Under the pieces are notes generated by a model. That model was not told the origin of the DNA. It did not search any database and was given only the letters and a program-made list of their open reading frames with translations. Of a stretch of DNA of 55,301 nt, positions 20,441-23,400 are shown piece after piece. Both the position numbers and the translations under genes were made by a program. The DNA is from an uncultured Holophagaceae bacterium (GTDB lineage: Bacteria > Acidobacteriota > Holophagae > Holophagales > Holophagaceae): contig CAIOFF010000012.1 in NCBI GenBank assembly GCA_903857495.1, forward strand, positions 1 to 55,301. The letters run 5' to 3'. How positions within the stretch are numbered: position 1 is the stretch's first letter; every line of letters starts with the position of its first letter.

Positions 20441-23400
20441 ATGCCCGGCCACCCCTCGGAACCCCCCGACCACCCTCTGCTCCACAACCTGAATGAGCCC
20501 CAGCGGGAGGCGGTCCGCCATGCCCGGGGCCCGCTGTTGATCCTGGCGGGCGCCGGCTCCGGCAAGACCACCGTGATCACGCGGCGCATCGCCTGGCTCA
20601 TCGAGGAAGAAGGTGTGCACCCGGGCTCCATCCTGGCCATGACCTTCACCAACAAGGCCGCCGAGGAGATGCGCGACCGCGTGCAGCGTCTGGTCTCCAT
20701 GCCCGCGGCGCAGATGTGGGTGAGCACCTTCCACAGCTTCTGCACACGCATCCTGCGCCGGGAGGGCGAGCGCACGCCCGTGGGCCGGGACTTCGTCATC
20801 TTCGATCCCGCCGACCAGAAGAGCCTCGTCAAGCAGGTGCTGGCCGAGCTGAAGCTGCCGGAGAAGCAGTTCCACCCCAAGAAGGTGCTGGAGGTCATCA
20901 GCGACTTCAAGAATCGCTGCCTCCTGCCCGACGAGGCCCGTGCGGAGGCCCTGGACCCCTGGACTCGCAAGGTGCTGGATGCCTACGAGCTCTACCAGAA
21001 GGGCCTGAAGAACCACCGGGCCTGCGATTTCGACGACCTGCTGCTGTGGACCGAGCGGCTCTTCCGTGACCCCGTCCTGCAGGCCACCTACGGCGAGCGC
21101 TTCAAGTTCATCCTGGTGGACGAATACCAGGACACCAACCGCGCCCAATACCTCCTGGTGCAGCACCTGGCCCGGCGGCACCACAACCTGTGTGTGGTGG
21201 GGGACGAGGACCAGTGTCTCGTCCCGGGCACCCGGGTCCGCATGGCAGATGGCGGGGACCGTCCCATCGAGCAGGTGGTGCCCGGGGACCTCGTCCTGGC
21301 GGCTCACGGCAGCGGTGACTTCCGGCCAGCCGCAGTGCTCAAGGCCGCGGCCCGGCCCGGGAAGGGCCTGGCCATCCGCATCACCACCCGGTCCGGACGG
21401 GTGCTCACCAGCACCCCGGAGCACATTCACTTCGCGGGCTACCGCCTGGGCGTCTCGCCGCAGCTCCACTTCGTCTACCTCATGCGCAAGCAGGGCATCG
21501 GGTGGCGGGTGGGTACCAGCCAGACCCACACGCGGGGTCAGGTGAAGCCGGTGGTAGGGTTCCTGCAGCGCGCCCGGCAGGAGCACGCCGACGAGCTGTG
21601 GGTGCTGTCCACCCATGCCAGTGAGCAGGAGGCGCGGCTCCAGGAAGCGGTCTGGTCGCTCCAGTATCAGCTGCCGACGCAGCCCTTCCTGCCGCGCAAA
21701 GGGGGCTCAATCCGGGGTCTCGTGCATGACGAGGAAGCCATCCTGAAGGTGTTTGCCGCCGTGGATTCCGGGGCCGGGGCCGAGCGCCTGCTGGGTGACC
21801 TGGGCATGGCCGCAGCCTTCCCGCACCACCGGGCCCAGGCCGCCAGGGGGTTCCGCCGGGTGGTGACCGTCACCCTCTGCGGGGACCGCCGGGGCCGGCG
21901 GCCCATGCACCGGATCTCCATGGTGGGTCAGGATCCTGAAGCCCGCCGCCTCCTCGAGGGGCTGGGCCACTCGGTGCGCCCGGCCAGGGCAGGCTCCACC
22001 AGCTGGCGCATGGAGACCTGCGCCGCCTCCTACGGCGAGGTCCGCCGTGCCGCAGACGGCATCCGTCAGCACCTGGGTGCGGAGATCCAGCTCCAGGCGC
22101 GGCTTGGTGCCAGTCCCGGGAAGGACACCTGCAGTCTGCCCTTCCTGCCTGCCTGCAACGTCCAGCCTGGCATGGCGATCTTCGATGTTGCCGGCGGCCT
22201 GGATCTGGTGGACCGCGTGGAGCGGGTGGCCGCGCCGACCCAGGTGTACGACCTGGACGTGGAGGGTGTGCACAACTTCGTGGCCGAAGGGCTGGTCACA
22301 CACAACTCGATCTATGGCTGGCGCGGCGCCGACATCCGAAACATTTTGGACTTCCAGCAGGATTTCCCGGAGGCGGTGCGCATCGAGCTGCTGCAGAACT
22401 ACCGGTCCACGAAGAAGATCCTGGACGCGGCCTCGGAGGTCATCGCCAACAACTCCCAGCGCGTGGCCGGGAAGGGTGCCCTGATCACGGAGTTGGGCGA
22501 TGGTGAGGCCCTCGTGTTCAAGCTGCTGGACGAGGGGCGCCAGGAAGCCGAGTGGGTGGCCCAGCGCATCCAGGAGCTGCGCTACCGGGACCCCGAGGGC
22601 AAGGTGGCGGTGCTCTACCGCGCCAACTGGCAGTCCCGGCAGATGGAAGAGGCCCTGCGCGCCCAGAACATGCCCTACCGCCTGGTGGGCGGCGTGAAGT
22701 TCTACGAGCGGCAGGAGGTGAAGGACCTCATCTCCTACCTGCGGCTCATCTCGAACCCCTTCGACCTGGTCAGCTTCCGCCGCTGCGTGAACGCGCCCAC
22801 CCGGGGCGTCGGCCCCACCACCCTGGGCAAGATCGAGGGCGCCATCCCCGAGGGCGGCACGCCCCTGGCCGGGCTCGAGCGGCTGCTGCGCTCCGGTGAC
22901 CTGAAGGGCCGCGCTCAGCGGGAGCTGATCAAGTTCCTGGACCTGTTCGCCCGGGCCGAGAAAGAGCGCGACGCCATGGGTCTGGCGGGCGTCGTGAAGT
23001 GGGTGCTCCAGGAGAGCGGCTACCTCCAGAGCCTGGAGGACGAGGCCACCCTGGAGGCCGAGGGCCGCATCCGCAACCTGGAGGAGTTCCTCAGCGCCGC
23101 CGCCGAGTCCGAGGCCCTGGGCCTGCGCCTCTCGGAGTTCCTGGACCGCATCACCCTCGCCTCGGACACGGACAACCTGGAGGAGGCCTCCCACCTCAGC
23201 CTCATGACCATCCACTGCGCCAAGGGGCTGGAGTTCCCCCACGTCTTTGTCATCGGCATGGAAGAGGACGTCTTCCCCAACCGCAACGCCCGCGAGACGC
23301 CGGACGGCCTGGAAGAGGAACGCCGCCTCTTCTACGTGGCGATCACCCGCGCCCAGCGGCGCCTCACGCTCAGCGCCGCGCGCCGCCGCCGGGTGATGGG

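Follow-up and report, generated by a model that had tools for sequence, protein, structure and literature searches.

An intein in the gene of a PcrA/UvrD helicase from an uncultured Holophagaceae bacterium (contig CAIOFF010000012.1 of assembly GCA_903857495.1; the window analyzed here is the entire stretch of 55,301 nucleotides) contains, nested in its Hint splicing fold, a nuclease-like domain that resembles the GIY-YIG nucleases in its predicted order of elements and in several invariant residues. Based on sequence comparison and structure prediction, we interpret it with good confidence as a mobile class 1 intein in helicase motif III that would home by means of this GIY-YIG-like domain, with a separate C-terminal domain that probably recognizes the target DNA. 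With less assurance, yet still as a fairly probable case, we propose that the widespread family of mobile inteins to which it belongs, with members in helicases and in methyltransferases of phages and spread over many phyla and phages, would home via a contiguous domain of the GIY-YIG superfamily with a rebuilt active site comprising Tyr88, Arg98, Arg119 and Glu144, but neither the YIG tyrosine nor the arginine of the first helix.

In the mechanism that we envisage, the precursor would splice itself, as the motifs and the predicted fold indicate, and judging from the position of the insertion the helicase would become active only once the intein has been removed. The intein protein would then bind the conserved, empty motif III sequence of an intein-less helicase gene, where Tyr88, Arg98 and/or Arg119 and a metal ion held by Glu144 may cut the DNA, a role suggested by their invariance. 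Repair from the intein-bearing copy would finally insert the element and leave behind the distribution that we observe.

Splicing domain and nuclease-like insert

The helicase is encoded by an open reading frame of 1129 amino acids at 20441-23830 on the forward strand, on which all parts of the gene and of the intein given below are read. Its N-extein (20441..21214) matches TIGR01073 PcrA and PF00580 and ends in VVGDEDQ, with GDEDQ as part of helicase motif III, and its C-extein (22307..23830), defined by the translation and by Pfam and NCBIfam matches, starts with SIYGWRGAD, so that the insertion point lies between GDEDQ and SIYGWRGA. The TIGR01073 match in the NCBIfam search falls into two stretches and reaches 745.7 bits, less than the model cut-off of 911.2, presumably because the intein breaks the helicase frame. 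The intein itself comprises 364 amino acids from Cys1 to His-Asn (21215..22306) and matches PF14890 Intein_splicing with an expectation value (E) of 3e-9, as well as TIGR01443 intein_Cterm. A preliminary description of this DNA, made from the letters of the sequence, had placed the intein at the same bounds, which Pfam, NCBIfam and the translation show to be exact, and had called its splice motifs complete; Cys1, T-P-E-H (residues 67-70), V-H-N-F (352-355) and H-N before Ser+1 were all located in the translation.

Class 1 inteins have Cys1, a TxxH block, a penultimate histidine, a terminal asparagine and a Ser, Cys or Thr at position +1, and all of these features are present here. The Hint domain is formed by an N-terminal half of residues 1-80 (21215..21454), with Cys1 and TPEH, and a C-terminal half of residues 307-364 (22133..22306), with VHNF and HN, the latter delimited by Pfam, NCBIfam, model and superposition. 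Apart from Intein_splicing, the Pfam search yielded weak Hint matches, and the Hint part of the model superposes on DnaB mini-inteins with a Z-score of 17.8 and a root mean square deviation of 1.3 over 130 residues. The stretch 21215-22306 is best explained as a full-length, mobile and ordinary (class 1) intein, for which motifs and predicted fold argue for splicing. Note that structure-database searches with the whole model were dominated by Hint folds, both in the best 50 of 421 Foldseek matches and in the best 50 of 158 chains at Z>=2, and therefore say little about the insert; PI-SceI was among the structure matches.

The nuclease-like domain, residues 85-158 (21467..21688), was delimited by the secondary structure of the model, its invariant residues and the first match in the Protein Data Bank (PDB), UvrC, discussed below. 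The model was obtained in an AlphaFold2 run on a 78-sequence alignment of the close family and has a mean predicted local distance difference test score of 92.9 and a predicted template modeling score of 0.90; for residues 81-150 the former ranges from 78 to 99 per ten-residue block. At the start of the insert it predicts strands 85-92 and 96-103, helix 115-122, strand 127-134 and helix 137-151, a beta-beta-alpha-beta-alpha order inside the Hint fold; the first of these strands contains Tyr88, the second Gly100, and the final helix Glu144. The preliminary description had suggested a GIY-YIG-like insert, and rather than a fold without the GIY-YIG core the model shows the strand-strand-helix-strand-helix order of these nucleases with the three residues in the expected elements. 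The reference order in this comparison is the one that we take to be canonical, in part after PMC1564403.

As evidenced by the alignments, these residues belong to a set that is almost strictly conserved. In the close family Glu144 and Phe158 occur in 78 of 78 sequences and Tyr88, Met90, Arg98, Gly100, Gly115, Arg119, Glu123, Asp126 and Trp129 in 77 each, and in the full alignment of 89 inteins, which adds 11 distant phage, plasmid or metagenome members, Tyr88, Met90, Arg98, Gly100, Arg119 and Trp129 are each found in 88 and Glu144 in all 89. Tyr88 (21476..21478), the likely equivalent of the GIY tyrosine, is replaced only in locus L091, by phenylalanine. Arg98-Val-Gly100 (21506..21514), the putative counterpart of YIG in which Arg replaces Tyr, lacks Arg98 and Gly100 only in locus L090, where a deletion removes the core (approximately residues 89 to 134) and the splice ends are kept. 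Arg119 (21569..21571) lies in the sole helix between strands 2 and 3, and Glu144 (21644..21646), the presumed equivalent of the metal-binding GIY-YIG glutamate, lies within the stretch aligned to the UvrC glutamate helix. The motif series pointed out at the outset, Y88-L-M, W97-R-V-G about ten residues later, R119-x-R-x-E-H and S136-E-Q-E-A-R-L-Q-E144, was recovered, although its third member holds up only in part: next to the conserved Arg119 and Glu123, His124 is present in 64 of the 78 close relatives, but Arg121 in only 25. The invariance of the set across phages and phyla suggests that it is catalytic.

L090, from an Actinomycetes metagenome-assembled genome (intein at 3001-3981), represents a clean loss of the nuclease core and an apparent nascent mini-intein. 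In L088, from a Solirubrobacterales metagenome-assembled genome (at about 1261), the N-terminal part of the intein is apparently lost just after Cys1 and the rest reads on, which may reflect either an error of assembly or an intein that is broken.

Relationship to known nuclease families

The middle of the intein (about residues 80-305) is not matched by any nuclease model of Pfam or NCBIfam, be it LAGLIDADG, HNH or another. The statement that this region of roughly 225 residues is devoid of LAGLIDADG thus stands, and the profile search did not produce a competing nuclease assignment. The two weak matches in PHROG are both within the splicing parts, and no nuclease model in that collection matches the intein. 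For the 78 members at E<=1 the listing shows 25 of 28 Pfam families, neither LAGLIDADG nor HNH being one of them, and a search of copies of Pfam and NCBIfam gave no relevant match to the domain. A LAGLIDADG or HNH nuclease in the insert was rejected, as no such profile is among the matches listed. A nuclease in another reading frame, a situation known for a phage methylase according to an excerpt of PMC11855218, was rejected as well: the four overlapping open reading frames gave no Pfam match at E<=0.1 and no HNH.

Sequence evidence in favor of GIY-YIG comes from profile comparisons. A profile of 35 nuclease domains, searched against 177,635 distinct PDB sequences, returned two matches at E<=10, first the GIY-YIG domain of UvrC (1yd6, E 0.99) and second an unrelated protein (E 1.8). 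The alignment to 1yd6 is collinear over 63 profile positions and runs from YLM through RVG, paired with YVG, to the glutamate helix. Because a GIY-YIG profile finds just 15 PDB sequences at E<=1, it is unlikely that UvrC ranks first by chance. Against a small GIY-YIG set the same profile gave an E of 0.0026. Using hhalign, the profile of 89 sequences scored 19.5 with 27 GIY-YIG sequences (single-comparison E 0.0023, probability 12.6%), which was reached by none of 600 target shuffles and one of 300 query shuffles and exceeds all 16 real-protein decoys (best 16.4). The 27 sequences were PF01541 matches from bacteria and phage T4 plus up to five short sequences found with PF10544, with loci lacking a clean frame excluded. 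When T5orf172 sequences were added to this set the score was 17.9, reached by 1/600 and 1/300 shuffles, and the positive control, GIY-YIG versus T5orf172, scored 24.3. The strongest segment of these matches is the 'SE-EA---E' helix, and GIY-YIG exceeded the controls only once the distant members had joined the profile.

A number of observations weigh against the assignment. The Pfam families listed for the members (25 of 28 in the main listing, all in two further ones) include no GIY-YIG model, and the UvrC match at E 0.99 is not significant taken alone; with a narrower profile, 1yd6 came third of three at E 1.3, behind two unrelated proteins. The hhalign comparisons with small sets failed (P 0.064 and P 0.3), and in further runs of this kind the score was reached by 5/60 and 46/60 local and by 28/60 and 34/60 global shuffles. 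T5orf172 alone scored 13.5 with the intein profile and did not rise above the decoys, while an unrelated LAGLIDADG set scored 16.1 with the nuclease domain, reached by 2/200 shuffles, such that column shuffles alone overstate significance. The putative active site deviates as well. The tyrosine of the YIG box is absent, its place being taken by the invariant Arg98 (88/89), and no C-terminal asparagine is conserved after Glu144 in the columns counted, with an aromatic residue at position 158. In UvrC and I-TevI two helices connect strands 2 and 3 and the first carries the catalytic arginine; in the intein domain there is one, and the predicted core as a whole has three strands but two helices. 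This single helix (115-122, QRARQEHAD) pairs in the 1yd6 alignment with TQRLVEEIAD of UvrC, a stretch which we take to lie later than the helix with the usual catalytic arginine, and the canonical first helix and its arginine are without a clear counterpart in the intein domain. Arg119 is invariant, yet its helix aligns with this later stretch, and for this reason Arg98 and Arg119 are both candidates for the catalytic arginine. In an excerpt of the superfamily survey PMC1564403, the GIY-YIG fold is described as three strands with three helices, and a central arginine as conserved.

What is retained are the tyrosine of the GIY box in strand 1, the glycine of the YIG box in strand 2 and the glutamate in the helix after strand 3, at the frequencies given above. 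Compared with UvrC (the N-terminal GIY-YIG domain, 1yd6) and I-TevI, the intein domain shares the YLM strand, the R/Y-V-G strand and the glutamate helix and is collinear with UvrC; it differs from both, as described in part in PMC1564403, in the YIG tyrosine and the arginine-bearing first helix, and neither of them is nested in an intein. The T5orf172 and MUG113 nucleases have a second box without tyrosine, with lysine at this position in 6/6 sequences of our T5orf172 set, and T5orf172 is termed a GIY-YIG subfamily in an excerpt of PMC10448857; likewise, the Slx1 lineage lacks the C-terminal asparagine (PMC1564403, excerpt). The loss of neither residue alone thus disqualifies a protein from GIY-YIG membership. 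Close kinship with T5orf172, for which the likeness of KIG and RVG might speak, was rejected, as hhalign gave no support.

The arginine in place of the YIG tyrosine, the missing first-helix arginine and the marginal sequence support would also fit a new nuclease family that has a fold or an active site of its own (Tyr, Arg-x-Gly, Arg, Glu), has converged on the GIY-YIG order and still drives homing. We consider this rather unlikely: the order of strands and helices, the positions of Tyr88, Gly100 and Glu144 and the first PDB match all favor a single superfamily, and T5orf172 does without the YIG tyrosine as well. Taken together, the sequence tests render homology of the nuclease domain to GIY-YIG probable, but not proven. 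The GIY-YIG-like reading of the preliminary description is therefore upheld by fold order, by UvrC as best PDB match and by the lack of any other nuclease profile, and tempered by Arg98, by a catalytic arginine without clear counterpart and by mixed profile-profile scores.

Linker and C-terminal domain

In the model, the nuclease-like domain is followed by a two-helix linker that ends in PHH (residues 173-205; 21731..21829) and is partly retained in short relatives, and then by a C-terminal domain of predicted beta-beta-alpha-beta-beta-alpha-beta order (residues 214-296; 21854..22102). By analogy with the layout of other homing enzymes, this domain probably serves DNA recognition. It has no sequence match in the PDB and no convincing family among 20 in Pfam, the best being HTH_33 (E 0.0046, in 2/59 members), and these 20 include neither LAGLIDADG nor HNH. 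The domain is absent from seven short relatives of 274-296 amino acids and occurs in altered form in inteins of phi92-type and metagenomic phages.

The predicted beta-beta-alpha-beta-beta-alpha succession resembles a LAGLIDADG unit minus its first helix, and the domain could accordingly be a degenerate single unit of this type used for DNA binding, a natural counterpart of engineered GIY-YIG/LAGLIDADG fusions. This would be compatible with homing by the GIY-YIG-like domain, but we regard it as improbable: the score of 16.2 against 17 LAGLIDADG_3 sequences (3/200 shuffles) is no better than the pairing of the LAGLIDADG set with the nuclease domain reported above, the register of the profile alignment was judged wrong, and there is no PDB match and no LAGLIDADG family among the Pfam matches. 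A LAGLIDADG origin of the C-terminal domain was rejected, since the profile comparison gave no support.

His204 and His232 are found in 78/78 and Cys222 in 69/78 sequences of the close family (residues 204, 205, 222 and 232 are encoded at 21824-21829, 21878-21880 and 21908-21910 of the window), and the three residues might form a metal site. On these grounds the C-terminal domain (205-300) could itself be the nuclease or a metal-bound catalytic part, with the first domain merely binding DNA. This we hold to be very unlikely, as the seven short relatives lack the domain and retain Tyr88, Arg98, Gly100, Arg119 and Glu144, His204 is kept in only 5 and His232 in only 1 of the 11 distant members, and an HNH profile appears neither for the members (25 of 28 families listed) nor for the domain (all 20 listed).

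Distribution, mobility and related systems

Matches to the intein were obtained in 13 of 396 genomes of the phylum, 10 of them full-length and with stop-free frames in 10/10. Scanning a collection of species genomes gave at least 237 relatives among 589 candidate stretches, of which the best 80 were retained for further analysis; the taxa named in their titles include Acidobacteria, Actinobacteria, Chloroflexi, Proteobacteria and Patescibacteria. A copy with 99% identity is located on a contig labeled uncultured Holophagaceae, and a 76% identical one in Geothrix fermentans DSM 14018. Wherever the sequence immediately upstream of the match is available (77 loci), Cys1 is preceded by a glutamine, and the +1 residue is Ser or Cys in all 79 with downstream context, implying the same helicase motif III site throughout; L092 appears by eye to sit in a more distant UvrD-like protein. 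The insert thus recurs at the same motif III site of related helicases, a recurrence that the preliminary description had proposed to look for. It had also called the combination uncommon; the element is no one-off and forms a widespread family. In an excerpt of a 2020 review, LAGLIDADG is called the commonest endonuclease of inteins (PMC7765530).

Among phages, tblastn found 52 records at E<=0.01, 37 of which cover at least 80%. The distant relatives in phi92-like phages (about 25-27% identity) are full-length, and those in a metagenomic phage and in Bacillus phages of the SPO1 kind match in part. In plasmids, Providencia and Thermobispora were matched, along with five Streptomyces records in the splicing part only. 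The Providencia intein used as query led to Streptococcus suis phage methyltransferases, SPO1-like phages and cyanobacterial plasmids, and the Thermobispora intein also to Vibrio phage RYC. Two short relatives, on a Providencia rettgeri plasmid (L151) and in Streptococcus phage Javan575 (L158), reside in ParB-like/adenine methyltransferase genes, a second type of host gene; the Providencia gene is missing from the gene table of its plasmid. A search of 199 genomes from the phylum, in which up to 27 candidates per genome were scored, revealed no free-standing copy of the nuclease domain, the three matches all being in PcrA inteins. Viral contig scans with the query A5 and with the SPO1 and Providencia inteins revealed no relative, while the phi92-like JohannJBalmer intein found one, 99% identical.

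Mobility of the intein is well supported by its distribution. Among 47 genomes of the genus including this one, 31 sites are uninterrupted, 13 are interrupted and 3 gave no match, leaving 44 matched; 11 of the interrupted sites are in open frames of 1,131-1,137 amino acids, and the two in shorter frames (G407 and G398) are less sure. The correlation of intein identity with extein identity is no more than moderate (0.63) over 74 loci, and for 32 of these the nearest neighbor differs. Between L044 and L071, both titled Azospirillum, identity is 95% in the exteins but 49% in the inteins, and for L032 and L083 the values are 97% and 49%; conversely, between L033 (Azospirillum) and L034 (Patescibacteria), by their titles of different phyla, it is 59% in the inteins and 36% in the exteins. 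An active homing nuclease would be expected to result in such independent invasions of a single site. The insert might instead be an inactive remnant, with the intein maintained only through splicing and vertical inheritance; nuclease loss is common among inteins and has happened in L090, and loss could also give patchy presence. This is very improbable in view of the residues invariant across phyla and phages, the near-identical helicases with inteins only 49% identical and the stop-free frames in 10/10 full-length matches.

Around the helicase gene, a tRNA-Leu (anticodon TAA) is located about 0.4 kilobases upstream at 19965-20048 on the reverse strand and a second one (anticodon CAA) at 35391-35477 on the forward strand. 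A small open reading frame directly upstream (20096-20431, forward strand) has a CASCH motif and by eye probably encodes a secreted cytochrome c.

The closest known systems are the inteins of the UvrD-like helicases of phages SPO1 (gp34.33) and CampHawk, which have a homologous nuclease domain in Hint and are inserted after GDDDQ. The SPO1 intein is 34% identical to the one described here over 119 residues (E 3e-15), but with 275 amino acids lacks the C-terminal domain; both are annotated merely as intein (for CampHawk, see the excerpt of PMC3868849). Helicase inteins of phi92-like phages (Justusliebigvirus and kin) match over the full length, with the same key residues and an aligning C-terminal part, and three listed records (JohannJBalmer, PaulScherrer and vB_EcoM_ZYD) name the intein but not the nuclease. 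The split class 3 intein AceL NrdHF is associated with a putative GIY-YIG homing endonuclease, which, unlike the nested domain described here, is encoded on its own, between the two halves of the intein in a fractured gene (PMC7891396, excerpt). LAGLIDADG inteins of the PI-SceI type also carry a nuclease between the Hint halves and home, but with a different nuclease fold, and LAGLIDADG is not matched here. According to an excerpt of the 2006 survey, no GIY-YIG member had yet been found in inteins (PMC1564403), whereas the 2020 review, in the part available, counts GIY-YIG among four endonuclease families (PMC7765530). Excerpts of the phage papers PMC3868849 and PMC8594841 name no nuclease type for these inteins, and the titles and abstract openings of the literature matches listed, a scope that excludes subscription literature, contain no description of a contiguous GIY-YIG intein.

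As it matches nothing relevant in the Pfam and NCBIfam copies searched, the domain points to a missing family model. The short form of about 275 amino acids provides a compact natural scaffold for studying how GIY-YIG domains select their sites, and with SPO1 and phages of the phi92 type homing could be assayed directly in common laboratory hosts. If our interpretation is correct, these inteins would represent the first GIY-YIG class nested in inteins as well as a new nuclease subfamily, and the Hint domain would have accepted another class of nuclease, across bacteria, phages and plasmids.

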